DNA of 16,573 nucleotides from Oscillospiraceae bacterium (lineage in GTDB: Bacteria; Bacillota_A; Clostridia; Oscillospirales; Ruminococcaceae). The stretch lies in NCBI GenBank assembly GCA_017523995.1, contig JAFWUX010000082.1, positions 1-16,573 of the forward strand, given 5' to 3'. Within the stretch, counting starts at the first letter, position 1. Every line of letters begins with the position of its first letter. Below, one piece after another: positions 1,076 through 16,401 of this stretch. The notes beneath the pieces are model-generated. The model was given only the letters and a program-made list of their open reading frames with translations, ran no database searches and was not told the DNA's origin. A program made the position numbers and the translations under genes.

Positions 1076-1915
1076 TTAATCCCTCTGACTTTCTGCCTGC
1101 TGACCGCCGGTGCTGTCGATTCTGCCGAACTTATAAAGCGGCGCGACCCGGATCAGCACTCTGCCGATGATGTCCTCCTCTGCGATCATGCCGACCTCGG
1201 GGTGGCGGCTGTCCTTGGAAATGTGGCGGTTGTCGCCGAGCACAAAGACATAGCCCTCCGGTACGGTCAGCGGATAGGTGAATGCGCGGTTGTCGCGCTT
1301 GGTCAGCGTACTGGTATAGGGTTCCTCGAGCGCCTTGCCGTCTACATAGACAATGCCCTCGTCAAAATCAATGTTCACTTCCTGTCCGGACTGCGCAATC
1401 AGGCGCTTGACGATCCGCTTGCCGAGACCCGGTGCGGCTGTGAGCTGCCCTGCATCATCAAAGGTATATGCGGATGCGCTGTTCAGGATCAGGATATCGC
1501 CGGTTTCGTAGGTTTTATCGAGCCGCGAGACCATCAGACGGTCGCCGTTTTCCAGTGTCGGCACCATCGAATCGCCCTCGACAACCGCGGTGCAGATCAG
1601 ATAGGTGAACACCAGCATCACAACGAAAATTGCTGTTGTGACGGATTCGATCACATCCGCGGCATCGCAGAGAAACTGTTTGAATGTGTAATGCGGTTCG
1701 TCTCCGGATGCATCTTTCTCCGGTGCGGGAGTCTCAGCCGGTGCCTGCGGTTCAGGAGCCGGTTCCGCTGCGGGTGCAGTTACCGGCGCGGGTTCCGCGG
1801 ATGTATCCGGTGCTGCTTCCGTCACGGTCTCCGGTGCTGTTTCTGCTGCGGTTTCGGGTGCGGCTGCCTCGGGTGCGGGGGCAGGCTGTTCCTGCGGAAT
1901 CTCAGGTGTCTCCAT
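1076..1915 (-). CDS. lepB: Signal peptidase I, long Pro/Ala/Glu-rich N-terminus
   Basis: A membrane serine protease that removes signal peptides from exported proteins. The 279-residue product has an acidic, low-complexity N-terminus (about 1-70) rich in Pro, Ala, Glu and Thr. One transmembrane helix follows (about 90-111), then the outward-facing catalytic domain. Catalytic Ser116 lies in GDSMVPT and the general-base Lys170 in RIVKRLIA. The conserved box E is present as GDNR at 227-230 with DSR at 235-237. The start is supported by GGAGGCG about 9 nt upstream. The cytoplasmic extension is absent from its two neighbours, which are otherwise close paralogues; it may be a spacer or a protein-contact segment, but nothing in the sequence shows which. 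It abuts rbgA with no gap. Confidence 0.93.
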   Translation of the reverse strand: METPEIPQEQPAPAPEAAAPETAAETAPETVTEAAPDTSAEPAPVTAPAAEPAPEPQAPAETPAPEKDASGDEPHYTFKQFLCDAADVIESVTTAIFVVMLVFTYLICTAVVEGDSMVPTLENGDRLMVSRLDKTYETGDILILNSASAYTFDDAGQLTAAPGLGKRIVKRLIAQSGQEVNIDFDEGIVYVDGKALEEPYTSTLTKRDNRAFTYPLTVPEGYVFVLGDNRHISKDSRHPEVGMIAEEDIIGRVLIRVAPLYKFGRIDSTGGQQAESQRD

Positions 1916-1966
1916 GCGGCTTCGCCTCCGTTTCTCTGCCGCACGCTGCGGCGTTGTCAGGATATG

Positions 1967-2614
1967 TTATGCGCCGATTCTGCCGAATTTCTTGAGCGGC
2001 AGAATCCGGATCAGAACTTTGCCGAGAATATCCTTTTCCTCGACAAGTCCGACATAGCTGCTGCGGCTGTCCGAGGAACCGTTGCGGTTGTCGCCCAGCA
2101 CGAATACATAGCCTTCCGGAACCGTCAGCGGATAGGGGAGTGCGTTGTCGCACTGCTCATGGGTCGGCTCGGCGATATACGGCTCATCGAGTGCCACGCC
2201 GTCCACATAGACGATGCGTGCGTCAAAATCAATGTCAACGGTCTGACCCGCCTGCGCGATCAGGCGCTTGACGATGCGCTTGCCGAATCCCGGTGTGGAA
2301 TAGATCGTGCCGTCATTGCCCATCGGGTGACCTGTCCAGTTGTTGATGATCAGGATATCGCCGTTTTCGTATTCGCGGGAAAGGCGCGAGACCGCAAGAC
2401 GGTCGCTGTCCTGCAGGGTCGGAACCATTGAGGTGCCGTCTACTCTTGCAATGCAGATCACGAATGTGAAGCAGAGAATCACAACAAAGACCGCTGCTGC
2501 AACGCATTCCAGAATATCCATCGCATCGCCGCCGAATTCTTTGAGCGTGTATTTTTCTTCTTCTGTGTTCTCCGGCTCCTCTGCCGGATGCTGTGACAGT
2601 TGTTCAGTATTCAT
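1967..2614 (-). CDS. lepB: Signal peptidase I, second paralogue
   Basis: A type I signal peptidase of 215 residues. After a short acidic N-terminus there is one transmembrane segment (about 36-56) and then the catalytic domain. Ser62 lies in DGTSMVPT, Lys116 in RIVKRLIA, and GDNR is at 174-177 with DSR at 182-184. I start at the ATG at 2614 because AAAGGAGA lies about 7 nt upstream. An in-frame ATG 18 codons further out (2668) would run into the upstream gene and add an unlikely basic segment. The sequence around the membrane helix and active site is very close to the next gene downstream, which points to tandem duplication. The gap to that gene is about 50 nt, with a small GC-rich inverted repeat. 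Confidence 0.93.
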   Translation of the reverse strand: MNTEQLSQHPAEEPENTEEEKYTLKEFGGDAMDILECVAAAVFVVILCFTFVICIARVDGTSMVPTLQDSDRLAVSRLSREYENGDILIINNWTGHPMGNDGTIYSTPGFGKRIVKRLIAQAGQTVDIDFDARIVYVDGVALDEPYIAEPTHEQCDNALPYPLTVPEGYVFVLGDNRNGSSDSRSSYVGLVEEKDILGKVLIRILPLKKFGRIGA

Positions 2615-2637
2615 GGCAAATCTCCTTTGGCTTTTTC

Positions 2638-3300
2638 TCAGAACAGGAATCCGAAGCGGTCGGTCCACTTTTCGGTCAGCTCTTCCTCGCGGTAGTAGCG
2701 GACGACTGCGGTGCCGAGCACCTCATCAACCGGAATCAGACCGACTGCCGTGCTGCGGCTGTCCGTGCTGTTCATGCGGTTGTCGCCCATGACGAAGACA
2801 TAGCCTTCGGGGACGGTCATCGGATAGGTGAATGCGCCGTCCTCACGCATGGTCGCTTCGGCAATATACGGTTCATCGAGCACATTGCCGTCCACACTGA
2901 CGGTGCCCGCTGCGGTGTTGATGTCAATGGTCTGTCCGCCGCGTGCGATCACGCGCTTGATCAGGATCTTGCCGAGCCCGGGCTGCTCTGTGATGACAGT
3001 CTGCTCCGGATCGGCAAAGAAGCCGCCCTGCTGATTATCCACAACAACGATGCTGCCGTTCAGACCCTTGAACGGTGTGACGATCAGCAGCTTGTCGAGA
3101 TTGTAGAGCGTCGGATTCATCGAGCCGCCGTCTACCGTGACGGGGCGCATGACAAATGCGAACAGCAGCACAAATACAAAAATCGAGGCAGCACCTGCCT
3201 CAAGGATATCCAGCACATCTCCGAGCAGATCGGAGAAGGAATAGGAATCTTCTTCTGCTTCGGATGTCTGTGTTTCGTTGTTCTTTTCTTCTTCGGCCAC
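2638..3300 (-). CDS. lepB: Signal peptidase I, first paralogue
   Basis: A type I signal peptidase of 220 residues and the first of three in a row. It has an acidic N-terminus, a transmembrane helix (about 32-52), and a catalytic domain with Ser60 in GGSMNPT, Lys115 in ILIKRVIA, and GDNR at 172-175 with DSR at 180-182. The start is GTG, supported by GAGGGAG 5 nt upstream. It is the most diverged of the three, with a different C-terminus and a different segment between the catalytic Ser and Lys. It lies 77 nt after rplS, behind a terminator-like hairpin and without a visible promoter of its own, so it probably depends on read-through. Confidence 0.93.
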   Translation of the reverse strand: MAEEEKNNETQTSEAEEDSYSFSDLLGDVLDILEAGAASIFVFVLLFAFVMRPVTVDGGSMNPTLYNLDKLLIVTPFKGLNGSIVVVDNQQGGFFADPEQTVITEQPGLGKILIKRVIARGGQTIDINTAAGTVSVDGNVLDEPYIAEATMREDGAFTYPMTVPEGYVFVMGDNRMNSTDSRSTAVGLIPVDEVLGTAVVRYYREEELTEKWTDRFGFLF

Positions 3301-4110: not shown

Positions 4111-4281
4111 TTATGCCTGCTCAGGCGCACCGACGGGACATGTATCTGCGCATGCGCCGCAGTCGAGACATGTATCTGCGTCGATGACGTACTTGCCGTC
4201 ACCCTCGGAAATTGCACCTGCCGGACATGCGTCTGCGCAAGCACCGCACTGGATGCATGCATCACTGATTGCATATGCCAT
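4111..4281 (-). CDS. 2[4Fe-4S] ferredoxin, clostridial type
   Basis: A small soluble electron carrier of 56 residues, the size of classic clostridial ferredoxins. Two cluster motifs are complete: Cys9, 12, 15 and 19 followed by Pro, and Cys38, 41, 44 and 48 followed by Pro. The two halves are similar to each other, as in the family, and the protein is acidic and Ala-rich. The ATG is preceded by AGGAGG (4290-4295 on the complement) at 8 nt. It stands alone between its own promoter and terminator, so it is probably a constitutive general electron carrier for pyruvate:ferredoxin oxidoreductase, hydrogenase or similar partners. The specific partner cannot be inferred. Confidence 0.95.
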   Translation of the reverse strand: MAYAISDACIQCGACADACPAGAISEGDGKYVIDADTCLDCGACADTCPVGAPEQA

Positions 4282-4683: not shown

Positions 4684-4712
4684 TTGACAAGATTCTGAAG
4701 ATTTGGTATAAT
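4684..4712 (+). promoter_or_regulatory. Consensus sigma-A promoter of the transport operon
   Basis: TTGACA (4684-4689), a 17-bp spacer and TATAAT (4707-4712) match the vegetative consensus at all twelve positions. Transcription would start near 4719, leaving a leader of about 109 nt before the first gene. Such a strong core promoter suggests control by a repressor or by leader structure rather than by an activator. Confidence 0.88.
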
Positions 4713-4734
4713 ATTATATTGTAAGATATTGTGG

Positions 4735-4770
4735 CGTTTTGCGCATCGCTGAGACGATCTGTGCAAAACG
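4735..4770 (+). promoter_or_regulatory. Leader hairpin 1 of the transport operon
   Basis: A long stem: GTTTTGCGC (4736-4744) pairs with GTGCAAAAC (4761-4769) with one G·U pair, then ATCG/CGAT closes a 6-nt loop after a 2-nt bulge. An additional C-G pair closes the base. No U-run follows, so it is not a simple terminator. It may stabilise the mRNA or be a protein or RNA regulatory site. Confidence 0.55.
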
Positions 4771-4785
4771 GCAAATCGGATGCTT

Positions 4786-4809
4786 CCGGCAGCGCAGGAA
4801 CGCTGCCGG
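4786..4809 (+). promoter_or_regulatory. Leader hairpin 2, just before the first ribosome binding site
   Basis: A perfect 9-bp GC-rich stem CCGGCAGCG/CGCTGCCGG with a 6-nt loop ends 6 nt before the ribosome binding site of the first gene. It lies close enough to influence translation initiation. It also argues against the upstream ATG at 4780, which would place this hairpin inside the coding region. Confidence 0.55.
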
Positions 4810-4815
4810 CGGAAA

Positions 4816-4822
4816 GGCGGAG
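4816..4822 (+). promoter_or_regulatory. Ribosome binding site fixing the GTG start of the solute-binding protein
   Basis: GGCGGAG lies 5 nt before GTG at 4828. The alternative ATG at 4780 has no purine-rich site in front of it, and starting there would put extra residues before the signal peptide. Confidence 0.65.
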
Positions 4823-4827
4823 ATACC

Positions 4828-7728
4828 GTGAGAAATACGAATATGATCCGGCGCTTTTCATCTGCGGCTGCCGCTGCCGTGCTGACAGGAACGCTCTGTC
4901 TGCCGCTGTGCTGCGCGGCGGAATCTGCGGCGGCGGAACCGGCTGCCGGTGACGATCTCTATACGCTGACCTTTGAGCGGGAAACCGGCTACAGCGACTA
5001 TTATGATATGCACATCGGGGAGAAGCGCCCCGAAACCGCAATCCGGATTGCGGGCAGCGACTACGCCGAAACCGCGGACGGCAGCTTTTCTGTCGGGACG
5101 CTCGGCGGCAGGGCTGAGGTGCTGATCTGGGACAGCGCTGAGGGCAGCGTCAGCTATCAGGTGGATGTCCCCGAAAGCGGCATCTATGCGCTGCAGCTTT
5201 CCTATTACGCGATGGAGTCGCCCTCGAATCAGGTGGAGCTTTCGCTGGAAATCGACGGCGAGCTGCCGTTTGAATCCGCTTCGCGCATCTGCCTCAACAA
5301 GATTTTCGTCAACCGCACGGAGATCAAAACCGATTCGCGCGGCAATCAGGTGCGCCCCTCGCAGATCGAGCAGCCGGACTGGCAGACAAAATTCGTCTAC
5401 GATGAGGACGGGCTGTTCAATGATCCGCTGATCTTTTCGCTGGAAAAGGGCACGCATACGCTGACCTTCTCCGGCATCAAGGCTTCGCTCGGCATTGAGT
5501 ATCTGCAGCTCTGTCAGCCGGAAGGCACCGGCAGCTATCAGGCGCCCTCTGAAAGCGAGACCGGCAGCACGCCCTCGACGCTTTATCGCATTGAGGGCGA
5601 ATCCGCGAAGTATAAATCCTCCTCGACGCTCTATCCGGCATACGATAATAATGCGTATACCGTTTCGCCCTCCGATCCGGTCAAGATGGTCTATAACACG
5701 ATCGGCGGCGCGAACTGGGATCAGGCGGGGCAGACAATCACATGGGAGATTCCCGCGGATGCGATCACCGGCGACGGCTGGTATAAGATCGGCATCAAGG
5801 CGCGGCAGAACGTCATGCGCGGATTCTACTCGAACCGCAGAGTGCTCATCGACGGGCAGCTCCCGAACGATGCCTTCGGACAGGTGAAATTCTACTATGA
5901 CAATGACTGGAGCCTGACACCCGTCGGGAAGGACGGCGAGACTGCCTATGTCTATCTGACGGCGGGCGAGCCGCACACGGTCACGCTTGAGGCAATGCCC
6001 GGCGAGATCGGCGAATATATGCGGAAGCTCGAAAGCACTGTCACCGACCTCAACACCTGCTATAAGCAGATTCTGATGATCACCGGTCCGAATCCGGATA
6101 AATACAATGACTATTATGTAGAGGAAAGCATCCCGACGCTGGTTCAGGACTTCATGCGGCTCTCGCAGCAGCTCAAGGAGGCGCAGAGCGGCATCGAACA
6201 GCTTTCCGGTACGCTCGGCTCGGAGGCGGCGGCACTCCAGAGAATGTATGTCATCCTCGATAAGTGCATCGAAAAGCCCAGCCGCATCCCGAATTATGTC
6301 ACGCAGATCAAGGACAATATCTCGACGATTTCCACGTTCATCTGCGATTACCGCGATCAGCCGCTGGAAATCGACTATCTCGAGATTGCCTCCGCCGACA
6401 GGGAATTCTCGCCGCTGAAATCCAAATTTTTCAAGCAGCTCGGATTCCGGTTCAAGGCGTTCCTCGGCTCCTTTACCGAGGATTACACCACGCTTTCCGA
6501 TATCGACGCGGATGCGGAGGATGTCATCAGCGTGTGGGTCAACCTCGGCAGAGATCAGGCGCTGGTTGTCAAGGAGCTTGTCGAGAACGAATTTGCGCAG
6601 CAGCATCCCGATATTCCGGTTTCGGTCAATCTCGTGGTCGGCGGTGTCGTTGAAGCGACGCTGGCGGGAAAAGGCCCGGATGTGGCGCTGTTCCTCGGCG
6701 GCGAATTCCCCGTCAACCTCGCATGCCGCGGTCTGCTCGTCGATATGAAGCAGTTTCCGGATTTCAATGACGCCGTGAAAAACTATCAGCACGATGCGAC
6801 TGTGCAGTACAGCTATGACGGCGGCTGCTACGGTATGCCGCTGACGCAGAACTGGACCATGATGTTCTACCGCACCGATATCCTCACGGAGCTCGGCTAT
6901 ACCGAACTGCCGCGGACATGGGACGATCTCATCGACATGCTGCCCGGTCTGCAGCGCAATCATCTCGGTGTCGGTCTGATTTTGCCCTCGACCAATGTCG
7001 CGGCGGCAACAGAGGCCGGTCACACCTATGCGTCGCTGATTCTGCAGCAGGGACTCAACTATTATAATCCCGAGCAGACAAAGACGCAGTTCGATTCCGT
7101 TCCGGCGATCCAGTGCTTTGAAAAGTGGACGGATTTCTACCGCGATTACAAGTTCACCCAGACCTATGACGCTTACAGCTATTTCCGCACCGGTCAGTAT
7201 CCGATTGTGATTGCAAACTACAGCTTTGCAAATCAGCTTTCGGTTGCGGCACCGGAAATCAAGGGACTCTGGGACTTCACCGTCATGCCCGGCACGATGC
7301 AGGCGGACGGTACTGTCAATCACGCATCCAATTCCGGCGGCACCGGCGCGGTGATCTTCAACAAGGTCAGAAACAAGGATGCCGCATGGGAGTTCGTCAA
7401 GTGGTTCTGCTCGAAGGATGTGCAGACGGAATACGGCGCCGACCTCGAAGGTCTGCTCGGACAGATGGGACGCTATGAGGCCTCCAATGTTGAGGCACTG
7501 AAACAGCTCAACTGGTCGGGCGCGGAAATGGATGTCCTGCTTGCACAGTGGGATGCGCTCACGGAAATCCCCGTGCTGCCTTCCTCCTATGCCGTGACCA
7601 GAAATATCATGAACGCATTTCGTGAGACCGTCAACTCCAATGAGAATCCGCGCGATACGCTCATGTACTACAACAGCGATATGAACGATGAGATCCGCAG
7701 AAAGCGCGAAAATCTCGGGCTGGACTGA
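4828..7728 (+). CDS. Large multidomain extracellular solute-binding protein of a carbohydrate ABC transporter
   Basis: Predicted to capture a saccharide outside the cell and pass it to the downstream permeases. At 966 residues it is about twice the usual family 1 length. A basic start and hydrophobic segment (about 9-36) form a signal peptide. Cys28 and Cys29 lie in it, but the residues before them do not make a normal lipobox. A first beta-sandwich resembling carbohydrate-binding modules spans about 43-230, and a second starts near 253. The second appears to be split by a helical insertion (about 400-508) before its last strand near 512-522. The solute-binding domain occupies about 565-960, with typical segments DVISVWVN, GKGPDVALFLGG, YGMPLTQNWTMMFYRTD and PRTWDDLIDML. 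It is first in the operon, 28 nt before the first permease. The substrate is unknown. Confidence 0.9.
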   Translation: MRNTNMIRRFSSAAAAAVLTGTLCLPLCCAAESAAAEPAAGDDLYTLTFERETGYSDYYDMHIGEKRPETAIRIAGSDYAETADGSFSVGTLGGRAEVLIWDSAEGSVSYQVDVPESGIYALQLSYYAMESPSNQVELSLEIDGELPFESASRICLNKIFVNRTEIKTDSRGNQVRPSQIEQPDWQTKFVYDEDGLFNDPLIFSLEKGTHTLTFSGIKASLGIEYLQLCQPEGTGSYQAPSESETGSTPSTLYRIEGESAKYKSSSTLYPAYDNNAYTVSPSDPVKMVYNTIGGANWDQAGQTITWEIPADAITGDGWYKIGIKARQNVMRGFYSNRRVLIDGQLPNDAFGQVKFYYDNDWSLTPVGKDGETAYVYLTAGEPHTVTLEAMPGEIGEYMRKLESTVTDLNTCYKQILMITGPNPDKYNDYYVEESIPTLVQDFMRLSQQLKEAQSGIEQLSGTLGSEAAALQRMYVILDKCIEKPSRIPNYVTQIKDNISTISTFICDYRDQPLEIDYLEIASADREFSPLKSKFFKQLGFRFKAFLGSFTEDYTTLSDIDADAEDVISVWVNLGRDQALVVKELVENEFAQQHPDIPVSVNLVVGGVVEATLAGKGPDVALFLGGEFPVNLACRGLLVDMKQFPDFNDAVKNYQHDATVQYSYDGGCYGMPLTQNWTMMFYRTDILTELGYTELPRTWDDLIDMLPGLQRNHLGVGLILPSTNVAAATEAGHTYASLILQQGLNYYNPEQTKTQFDSVPAIQCFEKWTDFYRDYKFTQTYDAYSYFRTGQYPIVIANYSFANQLSVAAPEIKGLWDFTVMPGTMQADGTVNHASNSGGTGAVIFNKVRNKDAAWEFVKWFCSKDVQTEYGADLEGLLGQMGRYEASNVEALKQLNWSGAEMDVLLAQWDALTEIPVLPSSYAVTRNIMNAFRETVNSNENPRDTLMYYNSDMNDEIRRKRENLGLD

Positions 7729-7756
7729 ATTCGTAATTTGAAGGAGGGTTCCTCTC

Positions 7757-8695
7757 TTGGATAAGGATCAGATTGGTGTCAGAACCAAACAGGAACGGCG
7801 CAGGCAGCTCTGGCTGCAGATCAGGCAGAATAAAGAAGCCTACCTGATGCTGGCGCCCTTTATGATCGTGTTTACGATCTTTACGATCATTCCGGTCATT
7901 ATGTCCCTGCCGATCGGTCTGACGGATTTTGATATGGTGAAATATCCCCCGACATGGGTCGGGCTGAGCAATTTCTATAACCTGTTTCTCAATGACAGCA
8001 TTTTTATCAAGGCAATTCGCGTGACGCTCGTCTTTGCGGTGTTTACAGGTCCTTTGAGCTACTTTCTGAGCTTCATGCTCGCGTGGCTCATCAATGAGCT
8101 GAATCAGACGCTCAAGGTCATCTTCACGCTGATCTTCTACGCGCCTTCGATGGCGTCCGGCGTCTATGCCGTCTGGCAGCTGATCTTCTCCGGCGACAGC
8201 TACGGCATCGCGAATTCCACGCTCATGAACCTCGGCATCACGACCTCGGCAATCCAGTGGCTGACGGATTCCAAGTACATCCTGACGGTGGTTATCATCG
8301 TGCAGCTCTGGGTCTCGATGGGCGCCGGATTCCTCGCGATGCGCGCGGGCTTCCAGAATATCGACAAGGCACAGTATGAGGCGGGCGCCATTGAGGGCAT
8401 CCGGAACCGCTGGCAGGAGCTCATCTACATCACGATCCCCGGCATGGGTCCCTCGCTGATGTTCGCGGCGGTCATGCAGATCGTTTCGGCGTTTACGGCG
8501 GATATCGTCGCGAGAAACCTCGTCGGTTTCCCGAGCACCGATTACGCCGCGCACACGATCATGACGCATGCCTTCGACTACGGCTGGATCCGCTATGAAA
8601 TGGGCTATGCCTCCGCAATCTGCATGATTCTGTTCATCGCGATGTATCTCGCGAACAAGCTCATCAGCGGACTGCTCGGCAAATATATGGATTAA
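7757..8695 (+). CDS. Sugar ABC transporter permease, MalF type (pair 1)
   Basis: An integral membrane subunit that forms half of the translocation pore of a carbohydrate importer. The 312-residue protein has a charged cytoplasmic N-terminus, a first helix near 28-52, and further helices near 87-112, 120-143, 176-195, 231-250 and close to the C-terminus. The EAA loop that docks on the ATPase is visible at 208-230 (YEAGAIEGI…ITIPGM). The start is TTG, chosen because AAGGAGGG lies 8 nt upstream and the length then fits the family. It is followed after 12 nt by its MalG-type partner. No ATPase gene is present nearby, so a shared MsmX-like ATPase is likely (inference). Confidence 0.95.
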   Translation: MDKDQIGVRTKQERRRQLWLQIRQNKEAYLMLAPFMIVFTIFTIIPVIMSLPIGLTDFDMVKYPPTWVGLSNFYNLFLNDSIFIKAIRVTLVFAVFTGPLSYFLSFMLAWLINELNQTLKVIFTLIFYAPSMASGVYAVWQLIFSGDSYGIANSTLMNLGITTSAIQWLTDSKYILTVVIIVQLWVSMGAGFLAMRAGFQNIDKAQYEAGAIEGIRNRWQELIYITIPGMGPSLMFAAVMQIVSAFTADIVARNLVGFPSTDYAAHTIMTHAFDYGWIRYEMGYASAICMILFIAMYLANKLISGLLGKYMD

Positions 8696-8707
8696 GGGGG
8701 GCGGAAT

Positions 8708-9610
8708 ATGAGTCAGGCTTCAGCACAGGCAAAGCAGAAAACAGACCCGAAAAGGCTCAAAGCCTCCAATCGGCGCGCCGGCAGAAAAATCGGCGGCTCT
8801 GTCGCGATCTTCCTCTTTCTGCTGATCCTCGGTCTTTTTATGGTGCTCCCGATCTGGCTGATGGTCGTCAACTCGATCAAGCCGGTCAACGAAATGTTCA
8901 TCTTTCCGCCGAAGTGGTATACTTTGAACCCGACGCTCGACAACTTCAAGGATACCTACCGCGTGCTCGGTCAGATGTGGGTGCCCTTTTCCCGCTATGT
9001 GTTCAACAGCATCTTCGTGACGGTTGCCGTCACGGTTCTGCAGTGCGTCTTTGCCTCGATGGCGGCGTTCTGTCTGGCAAAGGTGAAATTCCCCGGCAAC
9101 AAGCTCATCAATGCGATCATCGTCCTTGCGCTGCTCTATAACAGCAATGTCATCTATCTGATGCAGTACATGGTCATGGCAGAGCTGAACATGATCAACC
9201 GCATGTCCGCGCTGATTCTGCCTTCGGTCGCATCCTCTATGGGACTGTATCTGATGCGGCAGTCCATGACCTCCGTGCCCGATGCAATGATCGAGGCGGC
9301 AAAGGTGGACGGCGCCAATCTCTTTACGATCTGCTGGCGCATCGTCATTCCGAACCAGAAGCCCGCGCTCATGACCATGGCGATCTTTGCATTCCAGGGC
9401 GCATGGAACATCACGGGCGGCAGCGTTGTCTATGACGAATCGCTCAAAACGCTCCCGACGGTCATTCAGCAGGCGGCTTCTGCCGGTATCTCGCGGCAGG
9501 GCGTGACAATGGCTGCGGCGGTCATTCTGTTTGTGCCGCCGGTCCTGTTCTTTATTCTCGCACAGAGTCAGGTCATGGAGACCATGGCGCATTCCGGTAT
9601 CAAGGATTGA
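8708..9610 (+). CDS. Carbohydrate ABC transporter permease, MalG type (pair 1)
   Basis: The second pore subunit of the first permease pair. The 300-residue protein has a basic cytoplasmic N-terminus (1-30), a first helix near 31-56, the signature segment KPVNEMFIFPP soon after it, and the EAA loop at 196-217 (EAAKVDGANLF…RIVIP). Helices follow near 221-240 and 266-288. The start ATG is preceded by a G-rich ribosome binding site that begins at the stop of the upstream permease, so the two are probably translationally coupled. Length and motif order are normal for the family. Confidence 0.95.
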   Translation: MSQASAQAKQKTDPKRLKASNRRAGRKIGGSVAIFLFLLILGLFMVLPIWLMVVNSIKPVNEMFIFPPKWYTLNPTLDNFKDTYRVLGQMWVPFSRYVFNSIFVTVAVTVLQCVFASMAAFCLAKVKFPGNKLINAIIVLALLYNSNVIYLMQYMVMAELNMINRMSALILPSVASSMGLYLMRQSMTSVPDAMIEAAKVDGANLFTICWRIVIPNQKPALMTMAIFAFQGAWNITGGSVVYDESLKTLPTVIQQAASAGISRQGVTMAAAVILFVPPVLFFILAQSQVMETMAHSGIKD

Positions 9611-9632
9611 TCCTTCCGCCGGAGCCTTGCAG

Positions 9633-9643
9633 AAAGGATGAGG
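9633..9643 (+). promoter_or_regulatory. Ribosome binding site favouring the GTG start at 9650
   Basis: AAAGGATGAGG ends 6 nt before GTG at 9650. The ATG at 9638 lies inside this purine-rich tract, with the AGAAAGG part touching it and no spacing, so the GTG is the better start. Confidence 0.55.
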
Positions 9644-9649
9644 AATTAC

Positions 9650-11185
9650 GTGAAAACAAATGCAAAGCGCAGGCTGATGCACGGCGCGGCGGCACTCTGT
9701 GCGCTGCTGAGCACCGCTTCGGCTCTGATGCTGCCGGCATCCGCGGATGAACCGTATGATGTCTATAACTATAACTATCTCGGAGAAGCGGTGCCCTCGC
9801 AGGCGGGATACCTCGCGGAACGTTCGGTTTCCGGTCTCGATCTCGGCACAACGCCGCTCAGTGCGCCGGGCGATCTCTTTAAGGATGAGAAGGATCAGTT
9901 CTATCTCGTCGATTCCGGCAACAACCGGATTCTCAAGATCGACAGCGAATTTACAGAGGTGCTCGAGGTCTTTGACCGCTTCACCATGCCCGACGGCTCG
10001 GAGACGCGGCTCAAAAATCCGAAGGGCGTCTATGTTTCGCCGGATACCGGTCTGATGTACATTGCCGACAACGAAAACGCACGCGCGCTGGTCGCAAAGC
10101 CCGACGGCACCGTTGTCATGGAAATCACAAAGCCGGCATCCACGGTCTACGATCAGCAGCTGACTTTTCTGCCGCAGAAAATCCTCTGCGACAATGCGGG
10201 CAATATCTATATTGTCCTGAACAACACCACAAAGGGCGCTGCAATGTTCGACGCAAACGGCGAATTCATCGGATACTACGGTGCGAATGCCGTTGCGGCA
10301 ACGGCAACCGTCATCGCAAACCACTTCTGGAACGCGATCGCCTCCGAGGAGGAAAAGCGCTACCGCTCCAGAAGCACGCCGACGGCATTCGATAACTTCG
10401 ATATCGACACGGTCAAGGGATTTATCTATACCTCGACCTCCTCCGGCTCGACCGACACCGACATCGTCAAGAAGGTCAATCCGGAAGGCTACAATCTGTT
10501 CAGCTATATGTCGAACTACACATGGGGCGATCTGTTCTCCACATGGTATTCCGGCACAACCTATAAAACCAAAATCGTCGATATCGACATCGGCGATGAT
10601 GGCTCGATCAACTGTCTTGATGCGACAACCGGCAGAGTGTTCCAGTATGACAAGGAGGCCGATCTGCTCTTTATCATGGGCGCGACCGGCGATCAGGTCG
10701 GTGCGTTCACGCAGGGCAATGTCGCTGCCGTTGAAACGAAAGGCGCGGGCTGCGAGAATATCTATGTGCTCGATGCCGGAAAAGGCACGGTCACGATCTT
10801 CGGGCAGACGGTCTTCGGGCAGATTGTCCACGATGCAACCGCGAAATATAACGGCGGCTACTATGAGGAGGCGCTCGAGCCGTGGCTGGAGGTCGTCAAG
10901 CGCGACGGCAACTACCGCAGAGCCTATCTCGGTATCTCCAGTGCCTACTACAACATGGGCAGATACAAGGAGTCGATGGAATATGCGAAAAAGGCAGATG
11001 CCTCGGCGCGCTATAACCGCGCATTCGAGCGCTACCGTTCGCAGTGGCTCAGGGAGCATCTGACGCAGATTCTGCTCGGCGTTGTGCTGATTATCGCAGG
11101 CGTCATGCTGCTCAAGTATGTTGTCCGGAAGCAGAAAAGCAAAAATCAACAGGCAGAACCGGCACAGACCGGTTCCGGAACGTAA
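9650..11185 (+). CDS. Secreted NHL-like beta-propeller with TPRs and C-terminal membrane anchor
   Basis: Function unknown. The 511-residue protein starts with a basic region and signal peptide (to about residue 32, ending ASA). It continues with repeated beta-strands typical of NHL/six-bladed propellers (about 70-390), e.g. FYLVDSGNNRILKID, MYIADNENARALV, IYIVLNN and NIYVLDAGKGTVTIFG. Two TPR-like helical hairpins follow (about 395-460: KYNGGYYEEALEPW, SAYYNMGRYKESMEYA). A single transmembrane helix (about 471-488) and a basic Gln/Lys-rich tail end it. The propeller and TPRs would therefore sit outside the cell, anchored next to the transporter. Propellers often bind ligands or partners, so a scaffold or sensor role is plausible but not shown. 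It lies between the first permease pair and the YIP1 gene with short gaps. Confidence 0.85.
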   Translation: MKTNAKRRLMHGAAALCALLSTASALMLPASADEPYDVYNYNYLGEAVPSQAGYLAERSVSGLDLGTTPLSAPGDLFKDEKDQFYLVDSGNNRILKIDSEFTEVLEVFDRFTMPDGSETRLKNPKGVYVSPDTGLMYIADNENARALVAKPDGTVVMEITKPASTVYDQQLTFLPQKILCDNAGNIYIVLNNTTKGAAMFDANGEFIGYYGANAVAATATVIANHFWNAIASEEEKRYRSRSTPTAFDNFDIDTVKGFIYTSTSSGSTDTDIVKKVNPEGYNLFSYMSNYTWGDLFSTWYSGTTYKTKIVDIDIGDDGSINCLDATTGRVFQYDKEADLLFIMGATGDQVGAFTQGNVAAVETKGAGCENIYVLDAGKGTVTIFGQTVFGQIVHDATAKYNGGYYEEALEPWLEVVKRDGNYRRAYLGISSAYYNMGRYKESMEYAKKADASARYNRAFERYRSQWLREHLTQILLGVVLIIAGVMLLKYVVRKQKSKNQQAEPAQTGSGT

Positions 11186-11200
11186 GGAGGTGTGCTGCAT

Positions 11201-11830
11201 ATGATGGATCTGACACAGCCGCAGTGGGTGAAGCATGTGGTCTTTCATCCCTTTGAGGGCTTTGAGGATCTGCGCTGGAAAAAGGGCGGCACGCTTAAAT
11301 ATACGGCGATTATCATTTTTGCGCTGTTCATCGCGCTGATTGCAATCGACCGCTGGTGCGGATTCCAGTTCCGGCCGCTCCCCGATGCGATGTTTTCCGT
11401 TGTGCCGTATATCATGCGCTCGGTGGTCTACTTCCTTGCGTGGGTGCTCGGAAACTGGGCGATCTGCACGCTGCTCGACGGCGAGGGCACGATGAAAAAT
11501 ATCGCGATTTACAGCTCCTATGCGCTGATCCCCTATATCGGGCAGATGTTCGCGCAGGTGATTCTTTCGCATATTCTTGTCCGCGCGGAGGCAGTGTTCT
11601 TCGATACCGTCTATTATGTCGGCATCATCTGGACGGTGCTGCTGCTGTTTAACGCAGTCAAGGCGGTGCATCAGTATACCTTTACAAAGACTGTCATCGC
11701 GATTATTCTGACGCTCTTTGCCATGCTGGTCATTCTGTTCCTTGCGGTGCTGTTCCTTTCGCTGTTCCAGAAGGTTTATGTGTTCTTCTATTCGCTGTAT
11801 ACAGAGATTCTGTATCGCGTGAGAGTGTGA
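11201..11830 (+). CDS. YIP1-family multi-pass membrane protein
   Basis: A 209-residue membrane protein of the YIP1 superfamily type; its bacterial function is not established. It begins with a soluble segment containing HPFEGFEDLRW (16-26), a feature I associate with bacterial members of the family, followed by about five hydrophobic helices near 33-50, 66-88, 102-126, 132-155 and 165-192. The start ATG follows AAGGAGGTG at 8 nt. That site overlaps the stop codon of the propeller gene, so the two are likely translationally coupled. Its place inside a transport operon suggests a role in assembling or organising the membrane complex (inference). Confidence 0.85.
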   Translation: MMDLTQPQWVKHVVFHPFEGFEDLRWKKGGTLKYTAIIIFALFIALIAIDRWCGFQFRPLPDAMFSVVPYIMRSVVYFLAWVLGNWAICTLLDGEGTMKNIAIYSSYALIPYIGQMFAQVILSHILVRAEAVFFDTVYYVGIIWTVLLLFNAVKAVHQYTFTKTVIAIILTLFAMLVILFLAVLFLSLFQKVYVFFYSLYTEILYRVRV

Positions 11831-11837
11831 GAGGCGG
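11831..11837 (+). promoter_or_regulatory. Ribosome binding site favouring the TTG start at 11846
   Basis: GAGGCGG lies 8 nt before TTG at 11846. The GTG at 11837 would overlap the last base of this site, leaving no spacing. Both starts give the same signal peptide and differ by three residues. Confidence 0.5.
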
Positions 11838-11845
11838 TGTTCGGA

Positions 11846-14221
11846 TTGCAGAAAAAACGTCATATCCTTTGCTGCCTGCTCGCAGCTGCCATGATGCTCC
11901 CGACCGCCGCAATGCCCGCCTACGCAGAGCCGGATGCTGAATCCGCTGCGGAGACGGAGCCCGCGCAGGACGCGGATGCGGATTCCGGTTCGCAGGAGAA
12001 TCCCGACTGGGTGGATCGCTCCGAAAAGGACGTCTTTGCGAAGATGCGCAAGGTCGCGGAAAATGATAAGCTCGAGTTCTGGGCATGGGACGCCGAAAAG
12101 CTCGATGAGGACAACGATGAAAAGCCGGAGGATCTCTTTGCACTGGTCAACAAGGCAAACGGGTATATCTGGTGGACCTCGCCGATCAATGCGGAGGGGG
12201 ATGCGCTGGCTTCACCGGTGCTGCGTGCGGAGGTCCGCTCCGGACTGGTGCTGACCGCGGCGCAGATCCTTGAACGCTCAACCACCAATGTCCGCTCCGG
12301 CGATACGCTCAAAACCGTGATCAGCTATTCGGACGTCAAAAACGGCGTCAAGGTCACCTATAATTTCCGCAAGGTCGGCATCAAGATTCCCGTGATCTAT
12401 GTGCTCGGCGAGGATTATCTCGAGGTCAGCGTCGATACCGCAGGCATCACCGAAAAGAACGATGCCTCCGCCGATAAGCCCGTGCTCGCGCAGTCGCTTG
12501 CGATGCTCAACGGCTTCGGTGCCGCGGGGCTCGATGAGGAAGGCTATTTTGTCATCCCCGACGGCAGCGGCGCGGTCATCAACTTCAACAATCAGAAGTA
12601 TTCCGCCAAGACCTACAGTCAGATGATCTACGATGTCGATACAACCGCCGTGCCGAAAACAAAGGGCCCGGTTGTGGAGGGCGTTTCGCTTCCGATGTAC
12701 GGCATCTGCAAGGGCGAAAATGCACTGCTTGCGGTCGCCTCTGAGGGCGACGGCAGCTGCATGCTCTGCGCCGATGTCAGCGGCACCGGTCAGTCGAATA
12801 CCGAATATAACCGCTGCTACTTCAAATTCGTGCTGCGCTCCTCTGACCAGTATTATCTCGGCAGCGACCAGCTCAATCCGCTGGATGTCTACGAGAAAAA
12901 TCTGACGCACCGGAATCTGCAGGTGCGGTACTATCCGCTGACCGCTGACGATGCGGTCAATGCGGACGGCGGAAAAGAGCTCGATTATGTCGATATCGCG
13001 GCGCGCTACCGGCAGTATCTGCTCGACGATATGCATGTGCAGAAAACTGCCGCCGCAAATCAGGCAAAGCTCTATATCGACCTCTACGGCGGATGCATGA
13101 AGCAGCGGAATGTCCTCGGATTTCCGGTGTTCATGAAAACCTCGATGACCTCCTATGCGGAGATGCAGAAGATTCTGGAGCAGCTCGGGGATGCGGGCGC
13201 GGAGAATCTGGTTGTGTCGCTCAACCGCTGGACCGATGCGGGCATTGCCGGCAAAGTCGATTTCAAAGCGAAAGCCTCCGGCACGCTCGGCGGCAGCTCC
13301 GGCTTCCGAAAGCTGACCGATTACATGAACGGAAACAGCATCGAATGGTATCCGACGGTGACGAACACCGCATACTACTCCGGCAACGGCTACTGGTCGC
13401 TGACCGACACCGCGGTGCGCGTTTCGGGTTCGTTTGCGCGTCTCGTGGACTATGAACGCGCCTACGGCGTGCCCTACGGCGAAAAGAAAACCATGTCGCT
13501 GCTTTCGCCGAATGTCTTTGCGGAGCTCTATCAGAAGCTTGCGAAGAACTATAAAGATGCAGGGCTCAGCAGCGTCAGCATCGGCGGGCTTTCTTCGGCG
13601 CTCTACGGCGACTACGGCAAGAAAACCGGCACCTCGCGCGATCAGACGATGCAGGCTGTGGAGGAGAGCCTCAAGCTGCTGAAATCTGATGTCGGGGCGG
13701 TGCTCTCGGAGGACCCGAATGCCTATGTCCTGCCCTATACCGACACGATCACCGATCTTCCGCTCTATTCCTCCGGCTTCAATATCTTTGACGGCGACAT
13801 TCCGCTCTATCAGCTTGTCATGCACGGCGTGATTCCGTATTCGACCAAGGCGGTCAACGGCAGCGCCGATGCCGAACGGCTCGTGATGCTCGCGCTCGCC
13901 GCCGGAAGCAATCTGCGGTTTGATATGCTCGGGGCGGAGACCAGCGAGCTCAAGGACACCGATTTCGATGTCTACTACTACGCCTTCTCCGATTACTGGA
14001 TCGAGAACGCCGCGCAGTATTATGACTTCACAAAGGATATCCTCGCAAAGATCAGCGATTCTGAGATCATCAGCTATGTGCGCGAGGATGACCGCATCAC
14101 CACAAAATATGCAAACGGCGTTGAGACCGTTGTCGATCTGAACGAATGCTCCGTGACGGCGGACGGTCAGACGAGATTTCTCAAGGATTATGTCCGGGAA
14201 GGAGCGGAGGTGTTTGAATGA
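11846..14221 (+). CDS. Secreted DUF5696-like protein with glycoside-hydrolase-like layout
   Basis: Function not established. The 791-residue product has a clear signal peptide (basic start, hydrophobic core, cleavage likely after AYA at 25-27), an acidic Ala/Glu/Asp-rich linker (28-53), then a beta-rich region (about 70-400) with GYFVIPDGSGAVINF at 233-247. The C-terminal half (about 408-745) looks like an alternating beta/alpha barrel, with KLYIDLYGG, AENLVVSLNRW, GLSSVSIGGLSSALYGDYGKK, and a late SNLRFDMLGAE. A beta-sandwich followed by a barrel is the layout of several glycosidase families (GH101/GH129-like, by impression). I cannot point to a certain catalytic pair; acidic residues at 463, 589 and 698 are candidates only. 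There is no C-terminal anchor. It overlaps the next permease by 4 nt (ATGA). Confidence 0.82.
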   Translation: MQKKRHILCCLLAAAMMLPTAAMPAYAEPDAESAAETEPAQDADADSGSQENPDWVDRSEKDVFAKMRKVAENDKLEFWAWDAEKLDEDNDEKPEDLFALVNKANGYIWWTSPINAEGDALASPVLRAEVRSGLVLTAAQILERSTTNVRSGDTLKTVISYSDVKNGVKVTYNFRKVGIKIPVIYVLGEDYLEVSVDTAGITEKNDASADKPVLAQSLAMLNGFGAAGLDEEGYFVIPDGSGAVINFNNQKYSAKTYSQMIYDVDTTAVPKTKGPVVEGVSLPMYGICKGENALLAVASEGDGSCMLCADVSGTGQSNTEYNRCYFKFVLRSSDQYYLGSDQLNPLDVYEKNLTHRNLQVRYYPLTADDAVNADGGKELDYVDIAARYRQYLLDDMHVQKTAAANQAKLYIDLYGGCMKQRNVLGFPVFMKTSMTSYAEMQKILEQLGDAGAENLVVSLNRWTDAGIAGKVDFKAKASGTLGGSSGFRKLTDYMNGNSIEWYPTVTNTAYYSGNGYWSLTDTAVRVSGSFARLVDYERAYGVPYGEKKTMSLLSPNVFAELYQKLAKNYKDAGLSSVSIGGLSSALYGDYGKKTGTSRDQTMQAVEESLKLLKSDVGAVLSEDPNAYVLPYTDTITDLPLYSSGFNIFDGDIPLYQLVMHGVIPYSTKAVNGSADAERLVMLALAAGSNLRFDMLGAETSELKDTDFDVYYYAFSDYWIENAAQYYDFTKDILAKISDSEIISYVREDDRITTKYANGVETVVDLNECSVTADGQTRFLKDYVREGAEVFE

Positions 14222-15138
14222 AAATTCCGTATGAACGCAGAAAAGCCCTCTATGGCTATGGCTTTATCTCGATCTGGATGATCGGCACGCTGCTCTGGTT
14301 CCTGATTCCGCTGCTGGAATCGCTCTGCTACTGCTTCATGGATAACACGCAGCTCAAGCCGGATGTCGGCGGCATGCACAAGGTCTGGCTGTGGAGCGTC
14401 GGGCAGAACTGGCTCGCGAACTTCAAATATGCCTTCGCTGCCGATCCGCAGTATAAGCAGAATCTGATCACCGTCCTCAAGGATACCGCGATCACCACGC
14501 CGATGATCCTGATTTTCTCGCTGTTTATCGCGGTCATTCTGAATCAGGAGTTCAAGGGCAGGGGATTCGCGCGCGCGATCTTCTTCCTTCCGGTTATCAT
14601 CGCGACGGGACCTGTCTACAACATCATCAGCGGTGATATCGCAAGCACCGGCGCGGACAGCGGCGCACAGTTCTCCACGCTCTTTGAGACCGACATCGTC
14701 GATCAGCTGCTCGAATTCCTCGGCGTGATGAATATCAGCGCGCAGCTCAGCAATATCATCAATTCTGTTGTGACCAATATCTTCGGACTGGTCTGGAGCA
14801 GCGGCATCCAGATTCTGATCTTCCTGGCAGCGCTCCAGAATATCCCCGTTTCCGCAAAGGAGGCGGCTTCGATGGAGGGCGCAACCGCGTGGGAGTACTT
14901 CTGGAAAATCACGCTGCCCTATGTCAGCCCGATGATCCTTGCAAACTTTATCTACACGGTCATCGACTCGTTCACCAAGACCGATAATCTGGTTATGGCG
15001 CGCGTGCTCGACAAGCAGCTCGACTGGGACTATGCCTATGCCGCTGCAATGGCGTGGAGCTATTTCGCGATTGTCATGGTGGTGGTCGGCATTGTTGTCA
15101 TGATCATCAACAAGTTTATCTTCTACGAAGTGGAATAA
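14218..15138 (+). CDS. Sugar ABC transporter permease, MalF/LplB type (pair 2)
   Basis: First pore subunit of a second permease pair. The 306-residue protein has helices near 15-38, 91-110, 118-137, 188-206, 238-254 and 275-300, and the EAA loop at 214-236 (KEAASMEGATA…ITLPY). Between the third and fourth helices there is a roughly 50-residue polar segment with short amphipathic parts (about 138-187), longer than in the pair 1 protein, probably an external loop contacting a binding protein. Its ATG overlaps the stop of the DUF5696-like gene, with GCGGAGG in front, so it is translationally coupled to that secreted protein. It is clearly diverged from the pair 1 permease, so it is not a recent duplicate. 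Confidence 0.95.
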   Translation: MKIPYERRKALYGYGFISIWMIGTLLWFLIPLLESLCYCFMDNTQLKPDVGGMHKVWLWSVGQNWLANFKYAFAADPQYKQNLITVLKDTAITTPMILIFSLFIAVILNQEFKGRGFARAIFFLPVIIATGPVYNIISGDIASTGADSGAQFSTLFETDIVDQLLEFLGVMNISAQLSNIINSVVTNIFGLVWSSGIQILIFLAALQNIPVSAKEAASMEGATAWEYFWKITLPYVSPMILANFIYTVIDSFTKTDNLVMARVLDKQLDWDYAYAAAMAWSYFAIVMVVVGIVVMIINKFIFYEVE

Positions 15139-15150
15139 GGGGGTGCAGAT

Positions 15151-16284
15151 ATGGATTTGGAAAACAAACTGAACCCCGAGGTTTCCGAGGATGCTGCACC
15201 GCTCCGCGAACCGAGCGGCAGACCGGAGCATCCGCAGCTGCCGGAAGGGTATATCCCGCCGAGCGCTGTGCCCGATGTCCATGAGGAACATGATGTCGGC
15301 GAGGGCATGTCCAAAAAGGAAGCCATGAAGATCCGCATGAAGAACATGAACCGGCAGGAGATTGCCTATCTCCGGCGCAAGCAGATCTTTGAGAAGTGCT
15401 GGCCGGTGTTCCGGTTTCTGATTCTGTTCGGGCTGGGATTTGTCATCCTCACGCCGCTGATGTTCATGATCTCCTACGGATTCCGCGAGAATACCGATAT
15501 GAATGACCCGACGATCATCTGGATTCCGCGGCATCTGACGCTGCGCATCATGAAGCAGACGATCAACGCGATGGGGCTGACGCAGTCCAAAAACAATCCG
15601 CTGATCAATACGCTCGTGCTCAATATCGGCTGCTCGCTCTGTCAGGTTGTGACCTGCGCGCTCACCGGCTACGGCTTTGCGCGGTTTAAGTTCAAAGGCA
15701 GAAATCTGCTGTTCGGCATCGTCATTCTCATGATTCTTGTCCCGACGCAGATTATCTCGATTCCGCTTTACAGCACGTTCCGGAACTTCCTGTTCGGGCA
15801 TGTCAACCTGATCGACAGCAAGCTCGTCATGTATCTGCCGGCGCTGACCGCAAACGGTATCCGCGCGGGTCTGATGATCTTCATTTTCCGGCAGTTCTTC
15901 CGCGGTCTCCCGAAGGAGCTCGAGGATGCGGCGTATCTCGACGGCTGCGGTCCGCTCATGACGTTTCTGCGCGTCATGGTGCCGAATGCAGGCTCCTCAT
16001 TCCTGACGGTCTTTCTGTTCTCGATCGTCTGGTACTGGAATGATTACTATGTCGCGAGCTCGTTCTTTACCAATACGAAGACGATTTCGCTCGTGCTCAA
16101 AAATCTCGACGGTACGCTCAATATCGCGATTTTCAACAATGCGAATGCGAATGTCAGCGCGCGTGAGAAGATCGTCTGGCTCGAGGCGGGCTGCCTGATC
16201 TCGATTACACCGATGCTCATCCTCTATGCGCTGCTGCAAAAGCACTTCACTGAGGGTATCGAACGCTCCGGCATTGTGGGATGA
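15151..16284 (+). CDS. Carbohydrate ABC transporter permease, MalG type, with long N-terminal extension (pair 2)
   Basis: Second pore subunit of the second pair. At 377 residues it is 70-90 longer than usual. The excess is an N-terminal cytoplasmic region (1-83): first acidic and Pro-rich, then strongly basic and helical (KKEAMKIRMKNMNRQE at 55-70). The core is standard, with a first helix near 86-109, the segment TGYGFARFKFKGRN around 172-185, and the EAA loop at 257-278 (LEDAAYLDGCG…RVMVP). The ATG follows a GGGGG-type ribosome binding site starting at the stop of its partner, with the same 12-nt gap as in pair 1. It is the last gene of the operon and is followed by a terminator-like hairpin. 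Confidence 0.95.
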   Translation: MDLENKLNPEVSEDAAPLREPSGRPEHPQLPEGYIPPSAVPDVHEEHDVGEGMSKKEAMKIRMKNMNRQEIAYLRRKQIFEKCWPVFRFLILFGLGFVILTPLMFMISYGFRENTDMNDPTIIWIPRHLTLRIMKQTINAMGLTQSKNNPLINTLVLNIGCSLCQVVTCALTGYGFARFKFKGRNLLFGIVILMILVPTQIISIPLYSTFRNFLFGHVNLIDSKLVMYLPALTANGIRAGLMIFIFRQFFRGLPKELEDAAYLDGCGPLMTFLRVMVPNAGSSFLTVFLFSIVWYWNDYYVASSFFTNTKTISLVLKNLDGTLNIAIFNNANANVSAREKIVWLEAGCLISITPMLILYALLQKHFTEGIERSGIVG

Positions 16285-16321
16285 TATGATCCCCGAACCC
16301 TTGTTTATTTGTGTATAAAAG

Positions 16322-16355
16322 GAAGCCGCTCCGGTCATGCTGATGGAGCGGCTTC
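16322..16355 (+). terminator. Terminator-like hairpin at the end of the transport operon
   Basis: A perfect 11-bp stem GAAGCCGCTCC/GGAGCGGCTTC with a 12-nt loop lies 37 nt after the last stop codon. The U-run on the plus strand is short and broken (TTCTTAT), while on the minus strand it is followed by CCTTTTATAC, so it may work in both directions. Confidence 0.7.
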
Positions 16356-16372
16356 TTATCATCGACATATAC

Positions 16373-16401
16373 AAAATGGGGTCTGGGGATAATATCCCCA
16401 G
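16373..16401 (+). repeat. Right copy of the shared hairpin repeat
   Basis: AAAATGGGGTCTGGGGAT is identical to positions 140-157, and the palindrome CTGGGGAT-AAT-ATCCCCAG (16383-16401) matches 150-167 apart from a loop changed by one inserted base. Stem conservation with a variable loop suggests that the structure matters. Confidence 0.7.

Follow-up and report, generated by a model that had tools for sequence, protein, structure and literature searches.

How does a sugar transport operon function when it encodes four permeases, one giant binding protein and three envelope proteins of uncertain function, and no ATPase? This question is raised by a 16,573-nt contig of an Oscillospiraceae bacterium (JAFWUX010000082.1, assembly GCA_017523995.1), which was analysed over its whole length and is hereafter called the window. 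Its eight open reading frames (ORFs) considered here extend from 4828 to 16284, all on the + strand, and no ATPase ORF was seen within the window. Based on the comparison of this block with related loci, we conclude that it very probably consists of two linked sugar importers of the ATP-binding cassette (ABC) type (modules 1 and 2, each with an A and a B permease), together with unusual surface partner proteins. The components are as follows (SBP, substrate-binding protein; aa, amino acids):

4684..4712, + strand: promoter-like site, TTGACA-17-TATAAT with an extended TG, 12/12 matches
4828..7728, + strand: giant SBP, 966 aa (Pfam SBP_bac_1, PF01547, 2.8e-25)
7757..8695, + strand: permease A1, module 1 (NCBIfam UgpA, 3.8e-15); own clade
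8708..9610, + strand: permease B1, module 1 (NCBIfam UgpE, 1.8e-22; BPD_transp_1 below the Pfam cut-off); own clade
9638..11185, + strand: propeller-TPR protein with a C-terminal hydrophobic helix at aa 471-489 (NHL, 1.3e-6; weak TPR)
11192..11830, + strand: YIP1 membrane protein (Pfam PF04893, 3.2e-12)
11837..14221, + strand: DUF5696 protein with an N-terminal signal/anchor helix (PF18952, 5.1e-149)
14218..15138, + strand: permease A2, module 2 (BPD_transp_1, 1.8e-7); own clade
15151..16284, + strand: permease B2, module 2 (BPD_transp_1, 1e-16); own clade
16320..16357, + strand: end hairpin (folding energy of 16300-16375: -29.6 kcal/mol, z -5.3)

Judged from the DNA itself, the eight genes form a real operon. 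The gaps between them measure, in order, 28, 12, 27, 6, 6, -4 and 12 bp, in agreement with the short or overlapping junctions described in the initial annotation, and Shine-Dalgarno-like sequences are located upstream of most of the starts. The single strong promoter proposed in that annotation was recovered at 4684-4712 and, since the number of promoter-like sites in the region (13) is near the level found in shuffled sequences (8.3, standard deviation 3.1), this is the sole site that stands out. The proposed terminal hairpin was found as well, with none of 200 shuffles of its stretch being equally stable; no T run follows it on the + strand, and it is missing from the list of terminator-like sites, which number 16 (11.5 expected, standard deviation 2.8) and are weak where they fall on the + strand within the operon. 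No Rfam family was found in the window.

In order to see whether the gene set is kept together elsewhere, the DUF5696 protein (PF18952) was used as the synteny anchor, both for a close set (the best 80 of 222 related stretches) and for a distant set of 60 longer loci, hand-picked and mostly best-scoring (40 from the phylum and 20 from the family genome lists). Gene order was counted with profile searches over all ORFs (in GC-rich loci, longest-ORF calling lost genes overlapped by antisense ORFs), and enough flank was available in 56 close loci, the window included, and in 54 distant ones, leaving 25 close and 6 distant loci unjudgeable. The order SBP-A1-B1-propeller/TPR-YIP1-DUF5696-A2-B2 is intact in all 56 close loci and in 33 of the 54 distant ones, and 11 further distant loci deviate solely in that YIP1 makes up the C-terminal portion of the propeller-TPR protein. 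Module 2 stands ahead of module 1 in five loci (L136, L144 and L149-L151), and another locus (L139) is collinear except for permease B1, which is split over two ORFs. A chance grouping of separate units, which the initial annotation had named as the outcome that would overturn its proposal, is ruled out by this synteny, the set being retained across Bacillota as it had suggested. DUF5696 itself scores above the cut-off in 39 of 398 genomes of the phylum and in 76 of 197 of the family, and is near-full (E below 1e-50) in 37 and 62 of these genomes, respectively; in 14 control genomes, PF18952 matched below the cut-off in two and above it in none. Its named homologues come from Paenibacillus, Cohnella and Gorillibacterium (many) and from Ruminococcus/Oscillospiraceae. 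Three Paenibacillus-type genomes (G344, G385, G075) contain 2-3 copies of the operon, and nine other genomes examined contain a single copy each.

Whether the two permease pairs form two transporters or one larger assembly had been left undecided in the initial annotation, and the data favor the former. Both pairs are present in 56/56 close and 44/54 distant loci and, in a sample of 35 loci, each of the permeases A1, A2, B1 and B2 forms a single clade with a support of 100 (all trees in this work being quick searches, midpoint-rooted, with long branches in the DUF5696 and SBP trees), so that A1/B1 and A2/B2 are old, distinct pairs. Additionally, the stretches of four loci (L124, L125, L128 and L133) contain module 2 and no module 1. 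The MalF/MalG-type permeases that characterize CUT1 importers are recognized in both A/B pairs (A1 through NCBIfam alone, having no Pfam match), and the family 1 SBP is represented by the giant SBP, both by PF01547 and by its predicted fold; the system would be a variant of CUT1 ABC import, and not a separate kind of transport.

The giant SBP of module 1 most likely starts, to judge from the surrounding sequence, at the GTG at 4828, which has a purine-rich stretch resembling a ribosome-binding site upstream, rather than at the in-frame ATG at 4780, where none is evident. In its predicted structure (predicted local distance difference test, pLDDT, 86), an N-terminal signal/anchor helix is followed by two β-sandwiches (aa 72-229 and 252-390), a helical stretch (394-509) and the SBP domain (514-962). 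As to the identity of the N-terminal sandwiches, CBM_35 is matched by 2 of 50 homologues, and the 50 Foldseek matches listed all fall on the SBP domain (maltose-binding protein fusions included). The best PDB profile match, to the β-1,2-glucooligosaccharide-binding protein Lin1841 (5ysb, 1.8e-21), leaves the substrate unfixed. The homologues inspected begin with a signal peptide or an anchor helix, and no lipobox was seen in them by eye. In the mechanism that we propose, this anchored receptor, with its carbohydrate-binding-like sandwiches, would pass the oligosaccharide to A1/B1.

In module 2, the propeller-TPR protein and YIP1 are fused in 24 of the 60 distant loci, whereas the other 36 have YIP1 as a gene of its own; the 716-aa protein of L142, for instance, contains NHL, TPR and Yip1 in one chain according to Pfam. 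On the DUF5696 tree (72 rows), the fused or separate state changes at least five times, and these repeated switches suggest that the two proteins work as one unit. This unit, together with the DUF5696 protein, would serve A2/B2.

The DUF5696 protein had been credited with the trimming of captured glycans, a role which the present data make doubtful. Its predicted model (pLDDT 89.6) has a GH129/GH101-like fold (GH, glycoside hydrolase; Foldseek match to 5opq, E 3.5e-27), and it shares with NagBb (5wzn) and DagB ZGAL_3152 (5opq), at 11-16% identity and as described in the portions available of the respective reports (PMC5698469, PMC8106489), an N-terminal sandwich, a TIM barrel and a C-terminal sandwich. 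PF18952 is the sole match of the window protein at E up to 0.1, with none to PF11308; a true GH129 protein (L180) matches both. Unlike GH129/GH101 glycosidases, the gene lies within a transporter operon and the nucleophile column (D435 of NagBb) is unconserved: it holds Gly584 in the window protein (13586-13588), and 18 of 76 close loci have an Asp there, although this column was mapped by a profile alignment with a one-residue gap, not by structure overlay, and could be off. An active GH129-related glycosidase which trims the glycan before import, as the fold might lead one to expect, is unlikely; column 625, near the acid/base site, also speaks against it: of the 47 Paenibacillus-type rows, 45 have Ser, Ala or Thr there, although an acidic residue (Glu or Asp) is present in 28 of the 45 Ruminococcus-type rows. 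The protein would rather bind or present the glycan than act as an enzyme. An assignment to GH53 was considered, given that PF07745 accompanies PF18952 in 4 of 120 listed rows, and rejected, since the GH129/GH101 fold match is far stronger; the PF07745 match probably reflects the shared barrel. Four GH129/GH101-related proteins of 626-671 aa (in L175, L176, L178 and L184) match PF18952 better than PF11308, and the Pfam borders of DUF5696, DUF6259, GH101 and GH129 overlap.

Regarding the energy source, the missing ATPase gene, which had been taken as an oddity, is probably not one: all 11 related genomes carry one OB_MalK (MsmK-type) ATPase match away from the operon, and in Anaerocellum bescii one MsmK serves all CUT1 transporters, according to the portion available of the report (PMC12096829). 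With a single remote ATPase of this type in each of these relatives, the absence of such a gene from the operon would be ordinary. A shared MsmK-type ATPase would then power both importers, which would be co-expressed from the one operon.

As to what is imported, same-strand neighbors of at least 180 aa were scanned (154/215, hand-picked; the two listings, drawn from 86 and 94 families, each give the 25 most frequent), with flanking meaning, throughout this work, the same strand in the fetched stretch and not necessarily the adjacent gene. Among the matches listed, the distant loci have as neighbors GH26 (6 proteins), GH95 (4), GH42 (3), and GH43, GH31, GH3 and apiosidase-like proteins (2 each), and also GH30, GH35 and Glycoamylase proteins. 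The glycan context proposed initially is thus borne out by the carbohydrate genes around the distant loci, and these hydrolases suggest varied plant-type glycans as substrates; no single substrate emerged, the enzyme families differing by lineage. The window operon lies beside housekeeping genes (for signal peptidases and ribosomal protein), so that no substrate can be named there.

How, then, are the permeases loaded? The single binding protein of the initial annotation holds for the operon surroundings in the window's clade, where no ordinary SBP gene (SBP2) was found near the operon in 23 rows, but not for the wider system, given that 37 of the 60 distant loci have an SBP2 in the vicinity of the operon and in the same orientation (in tandem at L122 and L126; that of L158 is unconfirmed by Pfam) and that orphan SBPs exist in the genomes of the window's clade. 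A search with a profile of 24 SBP2s retrieved 16 SBPs of at least 100 bits, at 15 loci, in 9/9 window-clade genomes, whereas lower-scoring matches there (57 bits at most) mostly have a permease match no more than a few kb away. The SBP gene has no permease match beside it in any of 34 loci of relatives (the 15 initial ones and 19 further), which were picked from the best SBP matches and of which four stretches (L219, L220, L229 and L232) end close to the SBP; as a control, 9/9 non-operon SBPs from G344 (Paenibacillus) and G188 (Caldicellulosiruptor-like) adjoin a permease. The 16 orphan SBPs make up a single clade (99), and a branch (98) separates them, together with 42 operon-neighboring SBP2s (58 rows in all), from the nine non-operon SBPs. 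The orphans are nearest to the SBP2s of L137 and of Caldicellulosiruptor-like loci (94), with which the window's clade also groups in the DUF5696 tree (99), and an invariant Cys occupies the expected lipobox position in the 15 aligned. Among the 197 family genomes, a near-full DUF5696 and an SBP of this kind (E 1e-30 or better) occur together in 47, DUF5696 alone in 15, the SBP alone in 7 and neither in 128, a co-occurrence which is inflated by shared ancestry. Up to 8 SBP matches were counted per genome, among the 8 candidates scored. We propose that A2/B2 would be loaded by these ordinary lipoprotein SBPs and, as they are orphan genes in the window's clade, that one permease core would be fed by several receptors.

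Several other genes were observed around the orphan SBPs. One stretch (L214, 3113-16486) contains eight SBP genes in an array, six of them full and the other two partial or broken, and no permease match; a large BspA-type leucine-rich repeat protein (PF13306; L193, 7631-10966) lies beside an orphan SBP, with a similar start in L192 and L194; and Peripla_BP-GGDEF proteins (L215, 401-2326; L228, 2393-4717) lie close to orphan SBPs, a possible link of cyclic di-GMP to sugar sensing.

The following points weigh against the loading of A2/B2 by orphan SBPs and against the glycan importers proposed here. Near-full DUF5696 is lacking in 7 of the 54 SBP-bearing genomes, nor did a search of these seven yield any operon-type permease (best score 167 bits, the operon permeases of three genomes scoring 233-421 bits). 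In one of them (G443) the SBP match is weak (3e-36), and the SBPs of the five of the seven that were examined (L233, the stretch of G422, being excluded as it is not that of the SBP) are dispersed across the SBP tree; these genomes may have lost the operon, their assemblies may be incomplete, or the SBP may be used otherwise. The window-clade genomes also hold other CUT1 permeases, which are potential users of the orphan SBPs and which rule out the operon as the sole CUT1 system of its hosts. Furthermore, 3 of 45 operon-neighboring SBPs group with non-operon SBPs, and a permease beyond the four short orphan stretches could escape detection. The pairing of orphan SBPs with A2/B2 is deduced from trees and from a co-occurrence inflated by kinship, and the link of the window operon to glycans comes by homology. 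One could thus imagine that all four permeases use the giant SBP alone, as the lack of an SBP2 beside the operon in the window's clade would allow, and that the orphans serve other transporters or uses, as they might in the seven genomes without the operon. Nevertheless, we find this distinctly unlikely, given that the orphans group with the L137 and Caldicellulosiruptor-like SBP2s, as is mirrored in the DUF5696 tree, and that such SBPs are present in 47 of 62 genomes with near-full DUF5696, versus 7 of 135 without.

The AraC, LacI and response-regulator genes found near distant loci, like the GGDEF proteins close to the orphan SBPs of L215 and L228, would fit a system that is mainly a sensor, in which the propeller-TPR, YIP1 and DUF5696 proteins report glycan occupancy and transport is secondary. 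However, no signalling domain was found by Pfam in the eight proteins and both permease pairs are kept in the numbers of loci given above, which makes such a sensor very unlikely. We hold the import model, taken as a whole (two CUT1 importers, corresponding to modules 1 and 2, with interchangeable SBPs and plant-type glycans as substrates), to be somewhat probable; within it, we infer the export of the proteins, the pairing of SBPs with permeases and the glycan substrate. A bolder version is rather doubtful: the eight proteins would form a single stable assembly, with the two importers held by an extracellular propeller-TPR/YIP1 scaffold, the DUF5696 protein, as a retired glycosidase, presenting the glycan, a giant anchored receptor, and exchangeable orphan receptors duplicating to widen the diet without new permeases.

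Among known systems, the SusCD-type outer-membrane complexes also combine surface glycan-binding proteins and an importer in one conserved locus, as here; unlike them, the present operon is Gram-positive, ABC-driven and without an outer membrane. The locus athe_0595-0598 of A. bescii (with the MsmK Athe_1803), as far as the portions available of its reports go (PMC12838199, PMC12096829, PMC8579813), resembles the operon in having a CUT1 permease pair, SBPs (two there) and an ATPase gene outside the locus, and differs from it by the two permease pairs, the 966-aa SBP and the propeller-TPR, YIP1 and GH129-like proteins found here. The deletion of a sugar transporter locus in this organism has been published (PMC12838199, available in part), and the table of 21 named transporters (PMC8579813), in the portion available, allows the operon neither to be matched nor to be excluded. 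In AdcACB and its orphan lipoprotein AdcAII, according to the available part of the report (PMC8966984), a lone SBP gene partners a remote permease, as would be the case here; that system, however, concerns zinc and one orphan, whereas the SBPs here are of sugar type, often several and in tandem.

Elsewhere in the window, three tandem type I signal peptidase genes are located at 1076-3300 on the - strand (PF10502, E 3.2e-32 to 4.1e-31). They are flanked by ribosomal protein L19 and by a GTPase gene (MMR_HSR1), which we take to be of the RbgA type. A 56-aa ORF at 4111-4281 on the - strand contains two clusters of cysteines and presumably encodes a small ferredoxin-like protein, a label given from the motif.

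DUF5696 occurs in its near-full form in the numbers of phylum and family genomes given above, and yet neither this family nor the gene set is described in the literature searched. If the import model is true, it would account for the orphan sugar SBPs of the Ruminococcus-type genomes studied here, and it would give a role to DUF5696, to bacterial YIP1 and to the propeller-TPR proteins.
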